A stretch of 64,000 nt of DNA, from assembly GCA_021324675.1 (NCBI GenBank), contig JAJPIR010000238.1, forward strand, positions 1 to 64,000. Direction: 5' to 3'. The notes under the pieces are model-generated. The model made no database searches, was not told where the DNA came from, and was given only the letters and a program-made list of their open reading frames with translations. Positions 618-11,128 of the stretch are shown here, piece after piece. The stretch comes from Actinomycetota bacterium. Its GTDB lineage: Bacteria; Actinomycetota; Actinomycetes; Mycobacteriales; Pseudonocardiaceae. Made by a program: the position numbers and the translations under genes. Within the stretch, counting starts at the first letter, position 1. Each line of letters begins with the position of its first letter.

Positions 618-800
618 ATGTCGATCACGATCACAATTCCTGGTCTTGACCGGCCGGCCGGCGCCGGTCGTGCCCTGCGCGATCTGCTACCTCTCGCGGG
701 CAGTGCGCTGCTAGTCCTCGCCGAGGAGTTCATCCCCGGCGTGGGGATTGCCGTTGGCGTGACCAAGCTGCTCGGGCTGCGGGTTGAGGTGGGCCCATGA
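618..800 (+). CDS. small hydrophobic 60-aa protein, first gene of the Mg2+ operon
   Basis: The ATG at 618 follows a good ribosome site (GGGAGG, 607-612). The 60-residue product begins MSITITIPGLDRP and has one hydrophobic stretch (about residues 22-52, LLPLAGSALLVLAEE then GVGIAVGVTKLLGL) that could be one membrane helix or a hairpin. Its TGA overlaps the start of the transporter gene in an ATGA (797-800), so the two are probably translationally coupled. I do not recognise a family. It could be a small accessory subunit of the transporter or only a coupling leader ORF. Good ribosome site, codon bias and the exact overlap support translation. Confidence 0.65.
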   Translation: MSITITIPGLDRPAGAGRALRDLLPLAGSALLVLAEEFIPGVGIAVGVTKLLGLRVEVGP

Positions 801-2473
801 GCACCAACGTCCCGGCGACGCGGACGCCGGGACGTGCGGGGCAGGATCACAGTGCGGTGCTGGATGAGGCTCACCTCGGGGATATCCAGGGCGCGTTGGG
901 CACCATCCGCCACGACGATCAAACGCCCCAGACCAGTCTGCCGGCCCGGCTGAAAACCCTGGTGGCGATCGTGGGCCCGGGTCTGATCGTGATGGTCGGG
1001 GACAATGACGCCGGGGCGTTCAGCACCTACACCCAGGCGGGGCAGAACTACGGCACCCGATTGTTGTGGACATTGCTGTTGCTCATCCCGGTGTTGTATG
1101 TCAATCAAGAAATGGTGGTGCGTCTCGGCGCGGTAACCGGGGTGGGACATGCCCGGTTGATCCTGGAACGCTTTGGCCGGTTCTGGGGCGCGTTCAGCGT
1201 GATCGATTTGTTTTTGCTCAACGCGCTGACCATTATCACCGAATTCATCGGGATCAGCCTCGGCCTGTCCTACCTGGGGCTACCTAAAGTGCCCGGGGTG
1301 CTGCTGGCCGCGACAGTGGTCATCGCCGCAGCATCGACGGGCAGCTTCCGCCGCTTCGAGCAGGTGTGCCTGACATTGGTGGCTGGGTCGCTGTTGCTGG
1401 TGCCGATCGTGGTGATGGTTCACCCGCCGCTGGGTCAGGTCGCCCACGACCTCGTGGTACCTGGCATGCCAGGTGGTGCGCAGCTGTCCACGGTGATGCT
1501 GCTCATCATCGCGATTGTCGGAACGACGGTTGCACCATGGCAGTTGTTTTTCCAGCAGTCTTATATCATCGACAAGCGGATCACCCCCCGGTTTATCGGT
1601 TACGAGAAAGTCGACCTGTGGATCGGGATCGTCATTGTTGTCGTCGGGGCTGCCGCGATGATGGCTTTCACTGATGCCGCATTCGTGGGGCATCCGGAGT
1701 TCGGGCAGTTCTCCGACGCTGGCGGGGTCGCCGCCGGTCTGGGTCGCTACGTCAATTACGTCGCTGGTGTGCTGTTCTCCCTGGCATTGATCGACGCCAG
1801 CATCATCGGCGCCGCCGCGGTGAGCCTGGCGACGGCGTATGCGATCGGGGATGTGTTGGGGTTGCGGCACTCGCTGCACCGCCGCCCTCGTGAGGCTGCG
1901 GGATTTTATCTGGTGTTCGCGGGGCTGTTGGTCCTCGCGGCGATCATTGTGGTTGTTCCAGGGAGCCCGCTGGGGCTGCTGACCGAAGGGGTACAAACCC
2001 TCGCCGGAGTGTTGTTGCCGTCAGCGACGGTGTTTCTGCTGTTGCTGTGCAACGACCGTCAAGTGCTCGGGCCGTGGGTCAACAGCCCGAGGATGAATGT
2101 CTTCACCTCGGTGGTGATCGCGATGTTGGTGATGCTGTCGATCGTGCTCACCGCCGCGGTGGTCTTCCCCGGGATCACCAGCACGGCAATCCTGACCATC
2201 TTGAGTGTGGGCACCGGCTTGACCATGCTGGCCGGTATCTGCCTGGCTGTGCGCCGCCGGGCAGATGCCGGCCACGTCGACCAGATCGAGACCCCGGCAG
2301 CGGCGGACCCCCAGGCACGCGCCGGGTGGCGGATGCCCCCGCTGGTGCTGCTGACGCGACCGCAGCTCAGTACCGGCCGCCGTCTTGGACTGGCCGTGCT
2401 GCGCGGTTACTTGGTCATCGCCGTGGGAATGGTGATCGTCCGGGTGGCACAGCTCGCCCTGGCCGGCCGCTAA
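797..2473 (+). CDS. NRAMP-family transporter with Mg2+-type (NRMT-like) metal site
   Basis: A 558-aa integral membrane protein with a cytoplasmic N-terminal tail of about 50 residues and roughly 11-12 hydrophobic helices. The first helix has the NRAMP frame VGPGLIVMVGDNDAGAF. The canonical D-P-G-N becomes D71-A72-G73-A74, and helix 6 has T-V-A246-P-W where metal-selective members have a methionine before the proline. Loss of the Asn and the Met, which give Mn/Fe selectivity, is the pattern I recall for NRAMP-related Mg2+ transporters. Gene context agrees: the M-box riboswitch upstream and the MgtE-N/CBS protein downstream. The start overlaps the 60-aa gene. The role as Mg2+ importer is inferred; membership of the NRAMP fold is clear. 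Confidence 0.88.
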   Translation: MSTNVPATRTPGRAGQDHSAVLDEAHLGDIQGALGTIRHDDQTPQTSLPARLKTLVAIVGPGLIVMVGDNDAGAFSTYTQAGQNYGTRLLWTLLLLIPVLYVNQEMVVRLGAVTGVGHARLILERFGRFWGAFSVIDLFLLNALTIITEFIGISLGLSYLGLPKVPGVLLAATVVIAAASTGSFRRFEQVCLTLVAGSLLLVPIVVMVHPPLGQVAHDLVVPGMPGGAQLSTVMLLIIAIVGTTVAPWQLFFQQSYIIDKRITPRFIGYEKVDLWIGIVIVVVGAAAMMAFTDAAFVGHPEFGQFSDAGGVAAGLGRYVNYVAGVLFSLALIDASIIGAAAVSLATAYAIGDVLGLRHSLHRRPREAAGFYLVFAGLLVLAAIIVVVPGSPLGLLTEGVQTLAGVLLPSATVFLLLLCNDRQVLGPWVNSPRMNVFTSVVIAMLVMLSIVLTAAVVFPGITSTAILTILSVGTGLTMLAGICLAVRRRADAGHVDQIETPAAADPQARAGWRMPPLVLLTRPQLSTGRRLGLAVLRGYLVIAVGMVIVRVAQLALAGR

Positions 2474-2566
2474 CTGGATCCAGAGTTACTGCCCTGACCG
2501 GCTGGGTGCGCCAGGATGGTGCCCAAGCCGGTAACCGTAGTGTTTCCGGGGAAAGGGACCTTGATC

Positions 2567-4042
2567 ATGACGTCCCCCCAGGACCCAACAAACACCACCG
2601 TGCCTGAACTTTCCGGGTCGAATCAGGGCTCGGGACCTGCCCACTCTGCGCACCCAACTGAGCGGGCAGATCAGACGCTGCCGTTGTCACAGCTGCTGCG
2701 CCGGGTTGTCGTAGGAGCCCGGGGGGAGAAACTGGGTGGCCGGGTGGTCGATGTGATCGTCCGGCTGCGCGGTACTGACTACCCACGGGTCACTGGGTTG
2801 GTGGCCGAGCTGGGTGGCCGGCGGGTGTTCGTGCCTGCCGACATGGTCACCGGCTGGAACACCGAACAGGTGTCACTATCCACCCCGCGGGTAGACCTAC
2901 GTGCCTTCGAACGCCGCGAGGGTGAGGTATTGCTGCGCGCGGACATCCTCGGCCACCGGCTGATCGACATCCCCCGGGCCCGGCTGGTGCGGGCCTACGA
3001 CCTGCAACTGGCTCGCACGCCGGCGGGATGGGTACTGGCCGGAGTGGACACCCGCCCCACCAGCTGGTGGCGTAGCCTGCTCCGCCTGGCCGCTCCGGAC
3101 TCCGACCATCCAGGTGCCGACGATCGGGACGAGGCAGGGGCCCACGGATGCCGGGACTGGAAGGCCTTCGAAGCGCTCATCGGTCACCAGCCCACAGTGT
3201 TGATCCGGCGCCCTGGCGGGCGACTGCGCCGGCTCAAGGCGCCACAGCTCGCCGACCTGCTGGAACAAGCTTCTCGCGAGGAGCAGACCGAGCTGCTCGA
3301 TCAGGTCCACGCTGATCCTGAGCTGGAAGCCGACGTGTTCGAAGAGCTCGACGACGATCGCCAATCCCGGCTACTTCGGGACCGAAGCGACAAGGACGTC
3401 GCTGCCGTGTTAGCCCGGATGCGCGCCGACGCCGCCGCCGACGCCATCGCCGACCTGCCCCAGCAACGCCGCAAACCGGTACTGGACCTGCTGCCCCCCG
3501 GGCAGCGCACCAAAGTGACCGCGCTGCTGGGCTACAACCCCACCAGCGCCGGTGGCCTGATGGGCCTGGACTACCTCGCCGTGCCCCATGACACCCCGGT
3601 CGCCGCCACCTTGGAGCGGGTCCGTACCGCACGCACCTTGCAATCTGAAGCCCTCACCACCATCTTCGGCCTGGATCAACACCGGCGGCTGCGCGGTGCG
3701 ACCAGCCTGGTCACCCTGGTGCAGGCCGACCCACGCGCCCAGCTGCAGGACATCGCCGACACCGATCCCGTCCGCGTGCACCCCGATGCCGACCTGACCC
3801 ACGTAACGCTGCTGATGACCGATTACAACCTGCTCAACCTGCCCGTCGTCGACGACGACGACCAGCTGCTCGGGGTGATCACCGTCGATGATGTCCTGGA
3901 ATCCACCGTGCCGCGCAACTGGCGTCGCCGCGAACCCACTCCCCACCCAGGCACACCGGATGACCACAACCAGGCAGTGCCGCCTGACCCGCGCACCGCG
4001 GCCACACCCCGGCGTCCCGCAGCCAGTCGACGTCAGGATTGA
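2567..4042 (+). CDS. soluble PRC-barrel / MgtE-N / CBS-domain protein (Mg2+ sensor-like, no channel)
   Basis: The 491-aa start at 2567 has the ribosome site GGGGAAAGGGA (2548-2558); an ATG 17 codons earlier lacks one. After about 40 polar residues come PRC-barrel-like repeats (about 40-165, EKLGGRVVDVIV and GWVLAGVDTRP), an MgtE N-domain superhelix (about 215-335, many short LLDQ/LLP helices and YNPTSAGGLM), then paired CBS motifs (about 338-455, ending DQLLGVITVDDVLES). In MgtE these N and CBS domains sense Mg2+ and gate the channel. Here the transmembrane domain is missing and the protein ends in a Pro/Arg-rich tail. It follows the NRAMP-like transporter by 93 bp, so it probably regulates that protein in trans. 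Confidence 0.85.
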   Translation: MTSPQDPTNTTVPELSGSNQGSGPAHSAHPTERADQTLPLSQLLRRVVVGARGEKLGGRVVDVIVRLRGTDYPRVTGLVAELGGRRVFVPADMVTGWNTEQVSLSTPRVDLRAFERREGEVLLRADILGHRLIDIPRARLVRAYDLQLARTPAGWVLAGVDTRPTSWWRSLLRLAAPDSDHPGADDRDEAGAHGCRDWKAFEALIGHQPTVLIRRPGGRLRRLKAPQLADLLEQASREEQTELLDQVHADPELEADVFEELDDDRQSRLLRDRSDKDVAAVLARMRADAAADAIADLPQQRRKPVLDLLPPGQRTKVTALLGYNPTSAGGLMGLDYLAVPHDTPVAATLERVRTARTLQSEALTTIFGLDQHRRLRGATSLVTLVQADPRAQLQDIADTDPVRVHPDADLTHVTLLMTDYNLLNLPVVDDDDQLLGVITVDDVLESTVPRNWRRREPTPHPGTPDDHNQAVPPDPRTAATPRRPAASRRQD

Positions 4043-4250
4043 TGCTCAGACGGTTGGCGAGGGAAACGTATCTCGGGTAGCGCGCTTGTGCGGGTAGATC
4101 CTTGCTCGGAATGAATTCCGGCCAGCCGGTACTCACAATGGAGGTCAGCCGGGAAGACGCCTGACGATCGCCGGCCGGAGCCCTTGGGTGACGGCTGGTC
4201 GCGCTGTATCACCCGGCGCCGGAGCTGCCAGAGCTGCTGAGGAGGGCACC

Positions 4251-4583
4251 ATGCAAGGGGAGCTGGAGCAGCGCGGTACCGCAGCGGATCTTGAACAGCC
4301 GCATCCGGAAATTCCGCACGACGCTGATCGATTTGCAGTGGGCCTGGAAGAGGGCCGTAAGTTGCACAAGGCCTGGCTCATCGCTGGCCTGCTGTCCGAA
4401 GCAGCGCTGGTGGGCATGTTCATCACTTCTCTTGAAGAGCCCGGCCCAGCATGGCCTGTGGTGCTGGCCGCCCTCGTGGTAGGGCTAGGCATGGCCATGG
4501 CCGTGCACCTGGCGCGGTTTCGCCTTAGCGGACAGCCGCGCGCTCAGCCGGGGAAAGGACACGGGTCGAAGGCTGCTCATTGA
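4251..4583 (+). CDS. small membrane protein with two predicted helices
   Basis: The 110-aa start at 4251 is set by GAGGAGGG five bases upstream. The N-terminal 45 residues are polar and acidic; two hydrophobic stretches follow (about 44-62, AWLIAGLLSEAALVGMFI, and about 70-90, WPVVLAALVVGLGMAMAV), then a basic, Gly/Lys/His-rich tail. The topology suggests a two-helix inner-membrane protein with both ends inside. No family is recognised. It lies between the Mg2+ locus and an NADP reductase gene, about 200 bp after the former, and may be its own unit. Confidence 0.65.
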   Translation: MQGELEQRGTAADLEQPHPEIPHDADRFAVGLEEGRKLHKAWLIAGLLSEAALVGMFITSLEEPGPAWPVVLAALVVGLGMAMAVHLARFRLSGQPRAQPGKGHGSKAAH

Positions 4584-4667
4584 GCCTGTGCCGCCCTCGC
4601 GACCAGGCAACCTGCCTACCGGCCAGCGGGAATGAGCGGACTCGGGCTAGCAGCAGTGGGAGGGAAC

Positions 4668-5360
4668 ATGAAAATCGGCATCATCGGTGCAGGCAACATC
4701 GGCAGCACTCTGGCCCGGCGCCTGGCGGCGCTGGGGCATGAGGTTGCGGTAGCCAACTCGCGCGGCCCCGAGACGTTGCGCGACCTAGCGGCGGAGACCG
4801 GTGCCAAGGCAGTTCCGGTTGCTGAAGCCGCGCGCGACAAGGACGTCGTCGTGGTGACCATCCCGGAAAGGAACGTGCCGGACCTGCCGAAGAACCTGTT
4901 CAACGGCGCGGGCGACGCCGTCGTCGTGGACACCGGCAACTACTACCCGCAGCAACGTGACGGCCGCATCGACGACATCGAGCAGGGAATGCCCGAAAGC
5001 CGCTGGGTAGCCCAGCAGCTGGGTCGGCCGGTGATCAAAGCATTCAACAACATCTACGCGCAACACCTGCGGGACAACGGCCGCCCGGCGGGCGCGCCCG
5101 GGCGTATCGCCCTTCCGGTGGCCGGCGATGACGATGCCGCCAAGGCAGTGGTCATGCAACTGATCGACGAGCTCGGATTCGATCCGGTGGACGCCGGCAC
5201 CCTGGACGAATCGTGGCGCCAGCAGCCCGGTTCCCCGGTCTACACCACGGACCTCGACGCCGACGGCGTGCGGCGCGCCCTGTCGCAGGCCAGCCCCGAG
5301 CGCACACCGGAGTGGCGCGCTACGCCTCACAGCCCCGGCAGCTTCACCGACCCCCGGTAG
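4668..5360 (+). CDS. NADPH-dependent F420 reductase-like oxidoreductase (Rossmann fold)
   Basis: The 230-aa protein starts at 4668 after GGGAGGGA. It opens with a Rossmann dinucleotide site, MKIGIIGAGNIGSTLARRL, and NSRGP at the end of beta-2, where Ser/Arg usually bind the NADPH phosphate. It then carries the VVVVTIPERNVPDLP and VVDTGNYYP segments of the F420-dependent NADP oxidoreductase fold (PF03807). The C-terminal half (FDPVDAGTLDESWRQQPGSPVY) matches the short standalone members rather than large ketol-acid relatives. The true electron partner (F420, flavin or a small substrate) cannot be read from sequence. Confidence 0.82.
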   Translation: MKIGIIGAGNIGSTLARRLAALGHEVAVANSRGPETLRDLAAETGAKAVPVAEAARDKDVVVVTIPERNVPDLPKNLFNGAGDAVVVDTGNYYPQQRDGRIDDIEQGMPESRWVAQQLGRPVIKAFNNIYAQHLRDNGRPAGAPGRIALPVAGDDDAAKAVVMQLIDELGFDPVDAGTLDESWRQQPGSPVYTTDLDADGVRRALSQASPERTPEWRATPHSPGSFTDPR

Positions 5361-5423
5361 CGCTCAGGTGGAGCCACCGAGTCCCGGCTAGTAGCGTCGG
5401 CTGGACGCGAAGCAGGAGGGGTT

Positions 5424-5738
5424 ATGGCAGCGACAGGAGATGAGCGGGTCTGGGAAGACGGCTCACGCGACCGCCGGGAGCATGGCGGCGCCCCGATGCG
5501 CCCCGACGACGAGGCGCTCGCCCGCCGTACCGAACGCGAACGCGTGGACGCCGGACTTGACGATTACGACCCCGACGACGTACCTCCGGCCACGGACACA
5601 CCGCCGCTGGCCGACACGACCGACACCGAGATCTATCAAGAGGAAAGAGCCGAGGTGAAGCGGCAGCTCGAAGAGGGCGAGCTGTACCCGCTCACAGAAG
5701 AACATCCGTTCCCGCCGACCCGGTACGACCGGACCTGA
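5424..5738 (+). CDS. small highly charged acidic protein of unknown function
   Basis: The 104-aa product starts at 5424 after GCAGGAGGGG. It is strongly charged and probably disordered, with runs of Asp/Glu/Arg and a Thr/Pro/Asp-rich middle (DDYDPDDVPPATDTPPLADT) followed by a short predicted helix (EERAEVKRQLEEGELYPL). No cysteine, membrane segment or catalytic motif is visible. Similar acidic short proteins are common in actinomycetes, often annotated as hypothetical. It is 22 bp upstream of the epimerase gene, so the two may be co-transcribed. Confidence 0.6.
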   Translation: MAATGDERVWEDGSRDRREHGGAPMRPDDEALARRTERERVDAGLDDYDPDDVPPATDTPPLADTTDTEIYQEERAEVKRQLEEGELYPLTEEHPFPPTRYDRT

Positions 5739-5760
5739 CGGGAGCGATGTGTGAGGTCAC

Positions 5761-6678
5761 ATGAGCATCCCGCTGTCAGGGCAGCAGTACGAGATCCGGA
5801 AGGGCGAGCAGGTCGCCGTGGTGGTGGAGGTCGGTGGCGGGGTGCGGGAGTACCGGGTCGCCGATCGCCCGGTGTTGGATCCGTATCCGTGGGAGGCCAT
5901 GTGCGACGGTGCGCATGGCGCCGTGCTCGTGCCCTGGCCTAATCGCCTAGGTGACGGCCGGTACCGGTTTGATGGTGTGGACTATCAGGTGCCGATCACC
6001 GAACCGGAAAAGGGTACTGCGATCCATGGGTTACTGCGCTGGTGCAACTGGGACCCGGTAAGCCAGGACAGCAACCAGGTGACCATGGGCATCCGGCTCT
6101 GTCCGCAACCGGGATACCCCTTTCTCCTCGATGTGACGGTGAACTACCTACTCGATGATCAGGGTTTGACGGTGACGACCACGGCGACCAATCGAGGCGA
6201 GCACGCTTGTCCCTACGGTTGCGGCCACCATCCCTACCTGTCACCGGGCAGCGGATTGATCAACCAGGGCGTGCTGAACTTCACGGCGGGCACCCGGATT
6301 GTCACCGACCCGCAACGCCAGCTGCCCACTGGAACCGAACCGGTGACGGGCAGCTTTTTTGACTTTTCTACGGGCCGGCAACTGGGCGATCAGCGCATCG
6401 ATTTCGCCTTCACCGACCTTGCCCGTGACGGCGACGGCCGAGCGTGGGTCCGGCTGGACGGGCCAGACGGGCGATGCGCCGAGCTGTGGGTGGATGGCAC
6501 CTATCCCCTCATCGAGCTGTACACGGGGGACACGCTCAGCCCGCACCGCCGCCGCCAAGGCCTGGGAGTGGAACCCATGACCTGCCCACCAAACGCTTTC
6601 CAGTCGGGCGACCGGGTTCATCGGGTCGAGCCAGGGCAGACCATCACCACCCGTTGGGGCGTCCGGCTGCACGCCTGA
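5761..6678 (+). CDS. aldose 1-epimerase family protein
   Basis: A 305-aa beta-sandwich epimerase that interconverts alpha and beta anomers of aldoses. The family landmarks are present: PWPNRLGDGRYRFDG near residue 58, a first histidine in IHGLLRW (about H89), the catalytic histidine pair in GCGHHPYL (about 155-160), and the catalytic acid in GVEPMTCPPNAF (about E271). Length is normal. It heads a same-strand run with the zwf remnant, HAD phosphatase and pgi, so it probably feeds glucose into glucose-6-phosphate metabolism. Whether the substrate is free aldose or hexose 6-phosphate is not decided by the motifs. Confidence 0.87.
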   Translation: MSIPLSGQQYEIRKGEQVAVVVEVGGGVREYRVADRPVLDPYPWEAMCDGAHGAVLVPWPNRLGDGRYRFDGVDYQVPITEPEKGTAIHGLLRWCNWDPVSQDSNQVTMGIRLCPQPGYPFLLDVTVNYLLDDQGLTVTTTATNRGEHACPYGCGHHPYLSPGSGLINQGVLNFTAGTRIVTDPQRQLPTGTEPVTGSFFDFSTGRQLGDQRIDFAFTDLARDGDGRAWVRLDGPDGRCAELWVDGTYPLIELYTGDTLSPHRRRQGLGVEPMTCPPNAFQSGDRVHRVEPGQTITTRWGVRLHA

Positions 6679-6775
6679 TCGCGCTGCCCACGAGAGCCGA
6701 GCACACAGCGCCGGACCGCAGCGGCCGCCATGATGATGGGCAGGAAGGGAGCAGCGCGGGTGAGGAAGATTCAGC

Positions 6776-7152
6776 ATGGTCGGTCAGGGCAGCAACGCAG
6801 CGGACCTGATGGTGATTTTCGGTATTACCGGGGATCTGGCCCGGACGATGACGTTGCGTGCGCTGTACCGGTTGGAGTGCCGCAAGCTGCTGGACTGTCC
6901 GATCCTGGGGGTGGCAAGTAGGCAGCGGTCGGACGGCGAGCTGATCGGGTGCTGCACGCCGCGCTCACCGGCGACCACCAGCTGTTCGCCCGCCAGGACA
7001 GCATCGAGGAAACCTGGCGCATCGTGCAAGCGCTGCTAGATCACCCGCCAGGCGTGCAGCCCTACCGGTGCGGATCATGGGGACCGCCTGCGGCGGAGTC
7101 ATTCTGCGGTCACTATCGCTGGCAGCAACCCTGGCTGGCGGACGCGAACTGA
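6776..7152 (+). pseudogene. zwf: glucose-6-phosphate dehydrogenase remnant with large internal deletion
   Basis: Two pieces of G6PDH are joined out of frame. From 6776 the frame gives the N-terminal nucleotide-binding start (MVIFGITGDLARTMTLRAL, then LLDCPILGVA) up to about 6945. From about 6949 another frame gives the C-terminal end (VLHAALTGDHQLFARQDSIE, then GSWGPPAAE) up to a natural stop at 7152. The central three quarters, with the active-site RIDHYLGKE block, is absent; by comparison with the usual ~460-510 residues about 1.1 kb has been lost. The gene cannot make an active enzyme. It sits in its expected place between the epimerase and pgi. Confidence 0.85.
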
Positions 7153-7172
7153 ACCATAAGGAGGCTGCACCG

Positions 7173-7877
7173 ATGGCCACACCGATTGCCGTGCTGTTCG
7201 ACATCGACGAGACCTTGGTGCATAGCGGGGGTGCGGGGACGCGCAGCTGGGCGTGGGCGTTTGAGCAGCTGTACGGGGTGGCTGCGGACATCGGTGCGCA
7301 CACATCGGCGGGGGAAACCGATCCGCAAGTCGGTAGGGAGACCTTCCGCGGGGTGCTGGGCCGCGAGCCCAGCCACGACGAGATGGCCCGGCTTTATGCC
7401 AAATACCTGTGGCACCTGTCAGAGGACATCTGGTCGTCGGCCACCTACCGGGTACTCGACGGCGCGCAAGACTTGCTGACCCGGCTCACCGAGGCGGGGG
7501 TGATCCTCGGGGTGGTCTCCGGTGCCATGGAAGGCGCGGCCCGAACCAAGCTGGAGCCGGGCAAGCTCAACCGGTATTTCGTCTTCGGCGCCTACGGCTC
7601 GGACTCCCCGGACCGGATCGAACTGACCCGGCTGGGTATCGCCAAGGCCGCCCGGATCCACGGTGGCGATCTGTCTGCGCAGCAGGTCTACGTCGTGGGC
7701 GACACCCCGCTGGACATTGCCGCCGGCCGCGCCGCCCACGCCACCACCGTCGGCGTGGCCAGCGGCCACTACCGCACCGAGGAACTGCAGGCAGCCCAGG
7801 CCGACTACGTTTTGTCGTCACTCACCGATCCTTTCCCCGGGTTGGGTGGCGGCAAGGCGGGAAAGGAATCAGGGTGA
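7173..7877 (+). CDS. HAD-superfamily hydrolase (phosphoglycolate/sugar-phosphate phosphatase-like)
   Basis: The 234-aa start at 7173 has AAGGAGG eight bases upstream. HAD motif I is [12 protein letters not shown] (nucleophile Asp and acid/base Asp), motif II is the Ser in GVVSGAMEG, motif III the Lys of RTKLEPGKL, and motif [17 protein letters not shown] helical cap follows motif I, as in class C1 HADs of the phosphoglycolate phosphatase/beta-phosphoglucomutase type. It lies 20 bp after the zwf remnant and 34 bp before pgi, so an operon is likely and the substrate is probably a sugar phosphate, by context only. Confidence 0.82.
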
Positions 7878-7911
7878 GGGAGCGGACAATCAGCTGGCTG
7901 GGAGGTGCTCG

Positions 7912-9582
7912 GTGACCAGTGCACGTTCGGTGGACCGCTCACGCTCGGCGGCTGGCCGCCGAGGGTTACCGGCCTGGCAGGCGTTGGCCCGGCACGCCGA
8001 CGAGCAGCAGGGCGTGACCGTGCGCAGTCTGTTCGATCAGGACCCCGACCGCACCCGCGACCTGGCGTTCGAAACGTGCGGCATGTACGTGGACTTCTCC
8101 AAGCACCGGATCACCCGCACCACTCTGCGACTGCTGCTGGACCTGGCCCAGCAGTGCGAAGTGACCCAGCGCCGCGATGCCATGTTCGCCGGTGAGAAGA
8201 TCAACGTGTCGGAACAGCGGGCGGTGCTCCACGTGGCGCTGCGCGCGCCCCGAGATGCTGTGATCACCGTGGACGGCCACAATGTCGTGCCTGGGGTGCA
8301 TCGAGTACTGGACCGGATGGCCGACTTCAGCCGGCGGGTCCGGTCAGGTGAATGGACCGGGCACACCGGGCGGCGCATCCACACGGTGATCAACATCGGT
8401 ATCGGTGGATCTGACCTCGGCCCGCGCATGGCCTACCAGGCGCTGCTGCCCTATGCCGGCCCGCAGCTGTCAGCCCGTTTCGTGTCGAACGTCGACGGCG
8501 CGGATTTCGTCACCGCCACCGCCGACCTCGACCCGGCCGAGACCCTGTTCATCGTGTCGTCGAAGAGCTGGCACACCCTGGAAACGCTGACGAATGCGCG
8601 TGCCGCGCGGCAGTGGATCCTGGATGCGTTCGGCAGCGACACCGCCGCAGTGGCGAAGCACTTCGTCGCCGTGTCCACCAATGCCGAGGGTGTGGCCGAG
8701 TTCGGCATCGATCCGCAGAACATGTTCGGCTTCTGGGACTGGGTCGGCGGCCGGTATTCCATGGACTCCGCAGTGGGCCTGTCGCTGATGCTGGCCATCG
8801 GACCTGACCAGTTCACGGAGTTGCTAGCCGGATTCCACGAGCTTGACGAACATTTCCGCACCACCCGACCGGAGCACAACATTCCGCTGCTCATGGGCCT
8901 GCTGGAAGTCTGGTACAACAACTTCCTCGGCGCCCAGACCCAGGCCGTGCTGCCCTACAGCCACTACCTCGAGCACCTGCCGTCCTACCTGCAACAACTC
9001 GAGATGGAAAGCAACGGCAAGCACGTCACCCTGGCCGGGCACCACGTCGACTACCAGACCGGGCAGATCATCTGGGGCCAGCCGGGCACGAACGGGCAAC
9101 ACGCCTTCTACCAGTTGCTGCACCAGGGCACCAAGCTGGTTCCCGCCGACTTCATCGGCGTAGCGGAACCGTTGAGCAAGCTCACCGAGCAGCACGATCT
9201 GCTGCTGGCCAACATGTTCGCTCAAGCCGAGGCGTTGGCGTTCGGCCGCTCGGAAGACCAGTTGCGCGAGGCCGGCGTGCCCGAGGAGCAGATCCCGCAC
9301 CGCGTGTGTGAGGGCAACCGGCCCAGCACGACGGTGCTGCTGGACCGGCTATCCCCGCGCCGCCTGGGCAGCCTGATCGCGTTGTACGAACACAAGGTGT
9401 TCATCGAGGGCGTGATCTGGGACATTGACTCGTTCGACCAGTGGGGCGTGGAACTGGGCAAGATCCTCGCCACCACCATCACCGACGAACTCATCGCCGA
9501 CAACCCGCCCGCCCTGGCCCACGACAGCTCAACCAACGAGCTGATCCGCCGCTACCGCGCCGCACGCAACCGCCCTATCTGA
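7912..9582 (+). CDS. pgi: glucose-6-phosphate isomerase
   Basis: A 556-aa cytosolic enzyme interconverting glucose-6-P and fructose-6-P. The GTG at 7912 follows GGGAGG at normal spacing. Visible family blocks are [13 protein letters not shown] (about 151-163), the phosphate loop [10 protein letters not shown] (about 206-215, with SWH replacing the common TFT), the catalytic Glu in LEMESNGK, the catalytic His in [14 protein letters not shown], and the Lys of [14 protein letters not shown] near the C-terminus. Length is typical. With zwf broken beside it, flow from glucose-6-P here would go through glycolysis unless another G6PDH exists elsewhere. Confidence 0.95.
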
Positions 9583-9637
9583 CGGCGGTATTCAGGCTCG
9601 GGAAAGGCGGAAGATCGGCCAGCCTTGGGCTCGTCCA

Positions 9638-9853
9638 TCAACCGAGCCAGTCCGTAAGTGCCTTCGCCAGCACGCGTGCACTGGTCTCGTCCAGCAGAAT
9701 GACACAGCCCCGGTCCACGTGCGGGTCTAATTCGATCTGCCCGTTGAGCTTGCGCACCACCAGGTTGGCGAATCCTGGCGTGCCTCGATGCCGGGTACAC
9801 GTCGCGTGGATCACCCGGCGAGTGCCTCCACCGGGGGGCTGATCATCAATCAT
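9638..9853 (-). CDS. 71-aa protein divergent from an HTH regulator
   Basis: The start at 9853 (ATGATTGATGAT) has GGTAGGGAC just upstream. The protein has the pattern of a compact beta/alpha unit: FANLVVRKLNGQIELDPHV, then GCVILLDETSARVLAKALTDWLG. Short genes ending in such an L-x-x-A-L-x-x-W-L-G helix often sit beside HTH genes in actinomycetes; here it is divergent from the HTH/TPR gene by 93 bp. I do not know its function. A longer upstream start in the same frame would run into the neighbouring promoter and lacks coding character. Confidence 0.65.
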   Translation of the reverse strand: MIDDQPPGGGTRRVIHATCTRHRGTPGFANLVVRKLNGQIELDPHVDRGCVILLDETSARVLAKALTDWLG

Positions 9854-9946
9854 GTCCCTACCATCGCGCCAAAACGGAACAGGTGCGACCCTCTCAGTGT
9901 CGCCTCTCGACTGCGGTGGGACGCAGGCGACAAATCGGAGGGCGCG

Positions 9947-11128
9947 ATGAACCGGGCGGACTTCGCTGCCGACCTCGCGCGCCGCCGTGCCGCTGCTGGA
10001 CTCAGCCTCGCCGACCTCGCCAGGCGCGCGCACCTGCACCGTGGATACGCCGGCAACGTTGAGCACGGGCATCGCTGGCCCACCGAGACCGTTGCACGCG
10101 CTCTGGACTCTGCCCTCGACGCCGACGGCGAACTACTGGCCACGTGGGAAGCCGCAAACCACGCACCGCGCACGCACACCCGTAACGCCGACGAATACCC
10201 GATCGAGCTGCTAGAGCTAGCCACCCGAGCCGAAGCCAGCGACGTCTCCCCCACCACCCTCGACCTGCTCGACTCCCGCGTCGACGCCATCGCGCGCGCC
10301 TACACCCGCCTGCCACCCACCGAACTGCTGCGTGAGGTACGTACCAGCGCCCGTCAAATCGGCGGCCTACTCGACGGCCGGGCCACCCTCGCCCAACGCC
10401 GCCGCCTACTCACCAGTGCCGGATGGCTCGCATTACTCGCTGCCACACTTCATGTCGACCTTGGCCAGCGTGATGCGGCTAGCAGCGCGCGAACCGTCGC
10501 CGGGTCACTGGGCAGGGAAACCGAACACGACGAGATCAGCGCCTGGGGTTGGGAAGTTGACACGTGGACTGCGCTCGTCGACCAACACTGGGGACGAGCC
10601 AAAGCACTGGCCACAGCAGGCGAAGACCTTGCCCCCAAAGGCAGCCCGGCTGCCGCGCAACTGGCCATGCAGGCCGCGCGTGCAACCGCTCGACTCGGTG
10701 ACGGTCCACAGGTCCGGGCTGCGCTGCGCCGCGCCGAGATCGCGTTGGAGCAGCAGTCAGCAGACCGGCCACCCGACCACCACTTCTACTTCGACGGCGA
10801 CAAGTACGAGCTGTACACCGGCACCACCCTGTCGTGGCTCGGTGATCCAGCCGCCGAAAACATCTCCCGCGAGGCCGCCGCCCACTACCAGACCAGTGGG
10901 CGGCGCCGCCGACTCACCACCGCCTACCTCGACCTCGGCCTGGTGCTGGCACGGTTGCGGCGACCCGATGAAGCCGCGCACTTCGGCGTGCTGGCACTCG
11001 GCGCAAACCACCTTGTGCCCTCCAACGCCTGGCGCGCTGACGAGCTGGTCGCCGCCGTCAGCCGGTACCGGGGTATACCGGAGGTCGAGGAGCTGCGGGA
11101 GCTGGCCGCCCAACGTGTCCTGGGATGA
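9947..11128 (+). CDS. XRE-type HTH regulator with helical-repeat C-terminal domain
   Basis: The ATG at 9947 follows CGGAGGG. Residues about 4-60 form an XRE helix-turn-helix (FAADLARRRAAAGLSLADLA, then GYAGNVEHGHRWPTETVARAL). The remaining 330 residues are all-alpha with TPR-like spacing of Ala, Trp and Leu, for example SAWGWEVDTWTALVDQHWGRA and ETEHDEI. This layout, short HTH plus long helical domain, is common in Pseudonocardiaceae and Streptomyces regulators whose helical part binds a peptide, small protein or ligand. The divergent 71-aa gene is the obvious partner or target. Confidence 0.82.
   Translation: MNRADFAADLARRRAAAGLSLADLARRAHLHRGYAGNVEHGHRWPTETVARALDSALDADGELLATWEAANHAPRTHTRNADEYPIELLELATRAEASDVSPTTLDLLDSRVDAIARAYTRLPPTELLREVRTSARQIGGLLDGRATLAQRRRLLTSAGWLALLAATLHVDLGQRDAASSARTVAGSLGRETEHDEISAWGWEVDTWTALVDQHWGRAKALATAGEDLAPKGSPAAAQLAMQAARATARLGDGPQVRAALRRAEIALEQQSADRPPDHHFYFDGDKYELYTGTTLSWLGDPAAENISREAAAHYQTSGRRRRLTTAYLDLGLVLARLRRPDEAAHFGVLALGANHLVPSNAWRADELVAAVSRYRGIPEVEELRELAAQRVLG

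Follow-up and report, generated by a model that had tools for sequence, protein, structure and literature searches.

In a 64,000-nucleotide (nt) window of the assembly GCA_021324675.1 of an Actinomycetota bacterium (Pseudonocardiaceae; contig JAJPIR010000238.1, positions 1 to 64,000, forward strand), the open reading frame (ORF) at 797-2473 very probably encodes a Mg2+ importer that belongs, within the SLC11/NRAMP superfamily, to the NRMT (NrmT) branch and is expressed from a Mg2+-regulated operon; the transport function is predicted, and the reading is given a probability of about 0.87. It is based on tree placement, the loss of the Asn and Met ligands, the retention of Asp, Thr and Gln in the metal site and the loss of the proton-pathway charges. 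The first-pass annotation had read the site as that of the Mg2+-transporting branch of SLC11, and this was supported by the trees containing EleNRMT of Eggerthella lenta and by two neighbours that point to Mg2+ independently, an M-box upstream and an MgtE_N/CBS gene downstream. Judged from sequence, the protein would be of a known kind (NRMT) carrying a binding-site variant, A74. The ORF and the parts of its metal site, the latter placed by alignment, are as follows:

797-2473, + strand: NRMT-type (NRAMP-related Mg2+ transporter) protein of 558 amino acids (aa), from Pfam, a PDB match, trees and an AlphaFold2 model
998-1021, + strand: helix 1 site GDNDAGAF (G68-F75 stretch), aligned to DraNramp and EleNRMT
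1007-1009, + strand: codon of D71
1016-1018, + strand: codon of A74, in the column of the DPGN Asn and of EleNRMT Gly58
1241-1243, + strand: codon of E149, equivalent to DraNramp E134, a Glu of transmembrane helix (TM) 3 kept family-wide
1520-1540, + strand: helix 6 site GTTVAPW (G242-W248)
1994-1996, + strand: codon of Q400 on helix 10, equivalent to EleNRMT Q379; DraNramp also has Gln

The ORF opens with ATG, is uninterrupted and encodes a full-length NRAMP fold, and the only Pfam family found in it was Nramp (PF01566, E 2.1e-79). A frameshifted or degraded gene was ruled out by this open full-length frame and by a relative of 81% identity (locus L007). The closest PDB sequence match was EleNRMT (7qia, E 9.1e-52), followed by BfraNramp (4.4e-16), and DraNramp and other MntHs matched more weakly than that. 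An AlphaFold2 model built from 25 sequences (mean predicted local distance difference test score, pLDDT, 71.3; predicted template modelling score, pTM, 0.76) had EleNRMT, in the entries 7qia and 7qji, as its nearest solved folds, with a TM-score of 0.85 by target length.

The first-pass annotation had noticed GDNDAGAF in helix 1 and TVAPW in helix 6 of an NRAMP protein, and both readings were borne out by the alignment: A74 and A246 occupy the Asn and Met columns, replacing both the TM1 Asn and the TM6 Met ligand, and the canonical DPGN (TM1) and MPH (TM6) motifs are absent from the protein, which has DAGA and APW instead. EleNRMT likewise has Ala in the A246 column, where we take the wild-type DraNramp residue to be Met230, the aligned DraNramp row being a point mutant. 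W248 stands in the His column of MPH (DraNramp His232), again as Trp in EleNRMT, and T243, equivalent to EleNRMT T224, provides with A246 the TxxA/T signature on TM6 (T243-x-x-A246); DraNramp has Ala at the Thr position. Thus D55, T224 and Q379 of EleNRMT are all kept in the window protein, as D71, T243 and Q400. In EleNRMT, transport is severely impaired by either D55A or Q379A, and with T224A no Mg2+ transport can be detected (PMC8806188). Furthermore, DraNramp E124, D131, R352 and R353, which are described as the proton pathway (PMC12873925), correspond to F139, I146, F374 and A375. The plant NRAT (Al3+) pattern DxxN-AxxT was not matched by the DxxA-TxxA of the window protein, and an NRAT-like Al3+ site was ruled out by the missing TM1 Asn.

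Mg2+ import by EleNRMT is proton-independent and uses a spacious site in which the ion retains most of its water (PMC8806188). EleNRMT resembles the window protein in fold, in clade and in its D-x-x-small/T-x-x-A site, and shares with it the Trp in place of His, the TM10 Gln and the lost proton-pathway charges. The two differ at Gly58 versus Ala74 and in length: the window protein, at 558 aa, is the longer one, carrying a conserved segment at its N-terminus (AVLDxAHxGDIxGALGTI) and additional helices at its C-terminus. For the Mg2+ branch, the signature in print is DxxG-TxxA/T (PMC8806188), so that the signature given in the first-pass annotation stands at the Met position, where Ala is expected, and needs correction at the Asn position, which is published as Gly and of which Ala is a variant. 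Full-text searches found no paper on the DxxA form, and DAGA is absent from the available text of PMC8806188; the figure logos of PMC12873925, drawn from 36,700 sequences, could show it.

Among 135 aligned proteins, the five site columns read D-A-T-A-Q in 85, D-N-A-M-Q in 31 and D-G-T-A-Q in nine; the ten others include the mutant form of DraNramp and a row with a gap. This table leaves out L002, L005, L006, L139 and L141, which are duplicate stretches of the window's own genome, and the partial ORF of L085. Ala at the Asn position is invariant in the sub-clade of the window protein (85/85), and since all 85 proteins share D-A-T-A-Q, the motif is not a product of chance or sequencing error. 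With EleNRMT as query, 30 further proteins were obtained, of which 26 carry DGTAQ, two DGTTQ, one DGTSQ and one GGTAQ.

The alignment and family tree proposed with the first-pass annotation were both carried out. In a maximum-likelihood tree of 59 rows (29 of the 85 D-A-T-A-Q, or DATA, proteins), the DATA group formed one branch (100/100) nested among Gly-type NRMTs, with all D-N-A-M rows elsewhere; the join of EleNRMT itself reached only 82/85, and several rows were long-branched. A second tree of 54 rows (19 of the 85 DATA proteins) was built without the five site columns and with extra EleNRMT relatives, L119 (DGTSA) being omitted. It recovered the NRMT rows with EleNRMT at 100/100, the canonical proteins separately at 100/100 and the DATA group at 100/100, the DATA rows lying inside the long-NRMT group at 99/100. 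Because it is nested inside DxxG proteins, the DxxA sub-clade is read as a variant of NRMT. Since this tree separates NRMT from canonical proteins, the window protein lies outside the Mn/Fe clade; compensating ligands were not found in the alignment either, and a canonical Mn/Fe transporter of that kind was rejected. The outcome that the first-pass annotation had named as refuting its reading was therefore not obtained.

The genetic context was also evaluated, and two neighbouring features bear on the substrate:

199-375, + strand: full-length M-box Mg2+ riboswitch aptamer RF00380 (Infernal 130.7 bits, gathering threshold 44, model positions 1-169 of 169)
2516-4042, + strand: soluble PRC-barrel-like + MgtE_N + CBS protein of 508 aa, with an alternative Met start at 2567 (Pfam, PDB, AlphaFold2 and Foldseek)

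The 3' end of the M-box lies 421 nt before the transporter ATG, and the M-box was the only Rfam RNA family found in the 64-kb window. For 61 genomes of the order, the matches listed were 83 to Nramp and 12 to the M-box; an M-box preceded, at a distance of no more than 1.5 kb and in the same orientation, 6 of 8 long-NRMT genes versus 0 of 75 other Nramp matches, of which 42 score at least 300 bits and a few are fragments; as the genomes are related, the 83 matches do not amount to 83 independent trials. Among 80 related loci in named genomes, chosen by similarity to the window protein and hence biased towards its type, an M-box precedes 23 (22 of 41 in Actinomycetota, 1 of 39 in Pseudomonadota), a lower bound because some loci, such as L010, are cut short upstream. 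The single Pseudomonadota case, L022 (titled Proteobacteria bacterium), may be a binning error, since the N-terminal region of its transporter is nearly letter-identical to that of L020, a similarly named Actinomycetes bin that is apparently from the same study. No M-box was seen at 11 Ele-like loci, where the stretches stop about 1.5 kb upstream, in or near the MgtE_N gene, and are therefore little informative. The Gly form also occurs with an M-box, in one Alicyclobacillus plasmid record and on the Mycolicibacterium aubagnense plasmid NZ_CP122996.1 (L178), where an M-box, a CBS/MgtE_N gene, a Gly-type NRMT and MgtC follow one another at 1099-6354; this M-box-associated NRMT carries the NRMT site, not the Mn site.

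The window's own genome has three M-boxes, in the window, in a paralogous operon on contig C150 and on contig C130. The paralogous operon (L139, G000:C150) is a second copy consisting of an M-box, a small ORF, a DxxA NRMT (about 8676-10340; 88% identical transporter) and an MgtE_N/CBS gene. On C130 (L140, G000:C130), the M-box at 5985-6154 lies about 600 nt ahead of an ORF at 6750-8252 (501+ aa, its frame cut by the contig end), which matched no Pfam family and looks P-type-ATPase-like to the eye only.

In the protein encoded downstream, Pfam identified MgtE_N (E 1.4e-19) and CBS (E 3.9e-12), with a PRC-barrel slightly below the cut-off, and the sequence matched the MgtE cytosolic domain 2yvy (E 1.1e-23) in a search of PDB sequences. 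The list of Pfam matches at E<=0.1 holds MgtE_N, CBS, the sub-threshold PRC and FliG_M and no MgtE channel (membrane) domain, whose absence ruled out a complete MgtE channel. In an AlphaFold2 model from 14 sequences, the N-terminal half was rich in beta structure and was accompanied by the helices of MgtE_N and two paired CBS domains; the model's best Foldseek matches were MgtE cytosolic domains; the positions of the domains in it are unreliable because of the low pTM (0.39; mean pLDDT 72.2). Moreover, D305, D309, D426 and D459 are kept in 14/14 relatives and align with acids of the MgtE cytosolic domain, numbered D91, D95, D214 and D247 in Thermus MgtE, which we take to be Mg2+ sites. From its sequence features, the protein is a Mg2+-sensor-like module without a channel. 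It is like the N and CBS domains of the MgtE Mg2+ channel (2yvy/2yvx) in sequence and fold, and unlike MgtE it has no membrane domain, has an extra PRC-barrel-like N-terminal part and is encoded by a separate gene adjoining an unrelated transporter. An MgtE_N homologue lies directly 3' of the transporter in 17 of the 80 loci (16 by the adjacency rule plus L029, whose MgtE_N frame opens far upstream) and anywhere in the locus in 21. The Gly-type relatives have the order sensor then transporter (L063, L178 and L179), and two plasmid records have an MgtC/SapB gene after the NRMT or after its CBS gene. A further PRC-MgtE_N-CBS gene of the same genome (L142, G000:C359, 3873-5153) stands on a contig with no listed Nramp match; this protein type is therefore not tied to NRMTs alone.

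The NRMT family, its control by M-boxes and the MgtE-N companion gene have been in print since 2014 (PMC4072509, PMC8806188). By its description, the Clostridium acetobutylicum NrmT (Ca_c0685, Ca_c3329) is like the window system in being M-box-controlled with an MgtE-N companion, which in the Ca_c0685 operon is split in two, unlike in the window (PMC4072509). The link between M-box and NRMT was described there mostly for Clostridia and Deltaproteobacteria, whereas here it was found in Actinomycetota and one Alicyclobacillus plasmid.

By comparison with these systems, low cytosolic Mg2+ would allow the M-box to permit expression of the operon, and partly hydrated Mg2+ would pass down its electrochemical gradient through the transporter without proton coupling, as in EleNRMT. 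D71, Q400 and the carbonyl of T243 would hold the ion, mainly via water, and A74 and A246 would make the site larger. In the least certain step, the MgtE_N/CBS partner would probably close or inhibit the transporter at high cytosolic Mg2+, like the module inside MgtE. We speculated, judging it less likely than not, that the long NRMTs could be two-part systems in which a separate MgtE_N/CBS subunit, with its PRC-barrel-like part, docks on the LeuT-fold transporter and closes it at high Mg2+, the conserved cytosolic segment at the transporter's N-terminus being a possible place of docking; in this tentative scheme the DxxA site would have been retuned, and would have arisen along with a change of gene order from sensor first to transporter first. 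If this were true, the physical gate, its place of docking and the Ala variant would be novel. A feedback role of the MgtE-like fragment was proposed by Shin et al. in 2014, and co-expression of the Acidobacterium capsulatum pair gave no extra rescue (PMC4072509).

Several observations weigh against the Mg2+-importer reading. Both trees show a long branch (2.8-3.2 changes per column) leading to the clade of long NRMTs, identity between the window protein and EleNRMT is only about 30-32%, and the Gly of the published TM1 consensus DxxG, which is not a strict criterion, is replaced by A74. Many related loci lack the context: an M-box was not seen in 57 of 80, some of them short upstream, and 63 of 80 have no adjacent MgtE_N gene. 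Two further positions of the downstream protein, T428 and N438 (the latter in 13/14 relatives), differ from what we take to be MgtE sensor sites. EleNRMT also moves Mn2+ (PMC8806188), and an NRMT-like protein of A. capsulatum with an MgtE-like neighbour and no M-box fully rescued a Mn defect and only partly a Mg defect (PMC4072509); because of this result, NRMT-clade membership and an MgtE_N neighbour do not by themselves prove Mg2+.

These points bear on three other explanations. That the protein is a proton-coupled Mn2+/Fe2+ importer (MntH) misread through two substitutions would agree with its membership of PF01566, whose best-studied members carry Mn2+/Fe2+, and with the Mn2+ transport of EleNRMT. 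However, the tree places the protein outside the canonical group, the Asn, Met and His ligands and the proton-pathway residues are missing, and an M-box lies upstream; moreover, the NCBIfam MntH model NF001923 gave the window protein 100.6 bits, far under its cut-off of 430, and the same genome already encodes a canonical MntH (L001; AYIDPGNFA and GATVMPH, 525.3 bits). An MntH is hence hardly credible here, and, because of this second gene, the contrast between the two sites is one between paralogues of a single genome.

An NRMT-clade protein serving mainly Mn2+, or a broad range of divalent ions, has the A. capsulatum NrmT as its model, which rescued Mn better than Mg despite its MgtE-like neighbour; Ala for Gly could shift selectivity, and most Pseudomonadota relatives have neither M-box nor MgtE_N. 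Yet the A. capsulatum gene is without the M-box that the authors propose as a marker of Mg2+ specificity (PMC4072509), whereas the window gene and its paralogue both have one, and this explanation is considered unlikely. The Gly-to-Ala change might instead yield a Ca2+-permeable or otherwise selectivity-shifted transporter, given that site size sets selectivity and that the T224A/G58N form of EleNRMT acquires Ca2+ transport (PMC8806188); the Ala itself is probably under selection, as it is invariant (85/85). Against this stand the retention of T243, the Thr most important for Mg2+, the nature of the change, which adds one methyl and no ligand, and the M-box control, which favours Mg2+, so that a shift of this kind appears very unlikely. 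Under the Mg2+-importer reading, the Gly/Ala split offers a natural experiment in the selection of hydrated Mg2+ by the NRMT site.

Two short ORFs lie between the M-box and the transporter:

469-552, + strand: possible 27-aa leader upstream ORF (uORF), MEPGSSCLWPCSVFLDAPTLIPLPATR, with an AGGAGG-type Shine-Dalgarno sequence; its ATG follows the end of the M-box by 93 nt
618-800, + strand: possible small hydrophobic protein of 60 aa whose frame overlaps the start of the transporter (ATGA), with GGGAGG upstream

A counterpart of the uORF lies 92 nt after the M-box of the paralogous operon, and similar short ORFs occur at 75-87 nt in Streptomyces-type loci, where the peptides are alike between loci (MDCSS..SPGHSRP..SGTR; L044, L049, L035, L051, L054 and L086 examined among M-box-transporter leaders). 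An ORF with a Shine-Dalgarno sequence and a start was present in 27 of 28 M-box leaders examined, with peptides that differ across groups. The M. tuberculosis M-box controls a small upstream ORF via translation and Rho, as reported in 2026, and its rv1805A uORF is like the putative window leader in being a short actinomycete ORF with a strong Shine-Dalgarno sequence after an M-box, its peptide being described as mycobacteria-specific (PMC12810186). By analogy, a similar leader logic is plausible for the window operon. Folding of 199-640 gave a z of -1.72 with no clear expression platform, and a promoter/terminator scan gave nothing useful close to the leader.

The 60-aa ORF has a second copy, 76% identical, ahead of the paralogous transporter on G000:C150, and was found in this genome only; across 249 genomes of the order, the three weak matches (E 7e-4 to 5e-3) were not counted as homologues. 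Differences between the two copies by codon position (11/6/17) are few and lean towards coding, and the product is a possible small operon-encoded partner of the transporter.

The transporter gene is widespread, occurring in soil actinomycetes and in Burkholderia, Paraburkholderia and Bradyrhizobium types, and is labelled Nramp in neutral or Mn/Fe-leaning terms; reading the product as a Mg2+ importer alters metal-homeostasis annotation. The first-pass annotation had expected 'manganese/iron transporter' as the usual label, which did not hold: in 40 listed plasmid records, 26 read 'Nramp family divalent metal transporter', one 'divalent metal cation transporter' and 13 had no listed gene. A 2026 mycobacterial M-box paper calls one branch 'Mn2+-type' after the type of the downstream gene (PMC12810186); such M-boxes may precede Gly-type NRMT genes and hence be misnamed. 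Relatives of the transporter are carried by 41 plasmid records (among them 12 of Burkholderia and 5 of Rhodococcus), with transposase genes near the transporter in NZ_CP120950.1 (L182) and a transposase and a TraM-domain gene in NZ_CP043642.1 (L181), and the gene is probably mobile. Paired NRMT genes were also observed, with two Ala forms in L034 (4001-5665 and 6689-8362) and with one Ala and one Gly form in L043 (3980-5638 and 6374-8431) and L063 (3983-5596 and 8398-9588).

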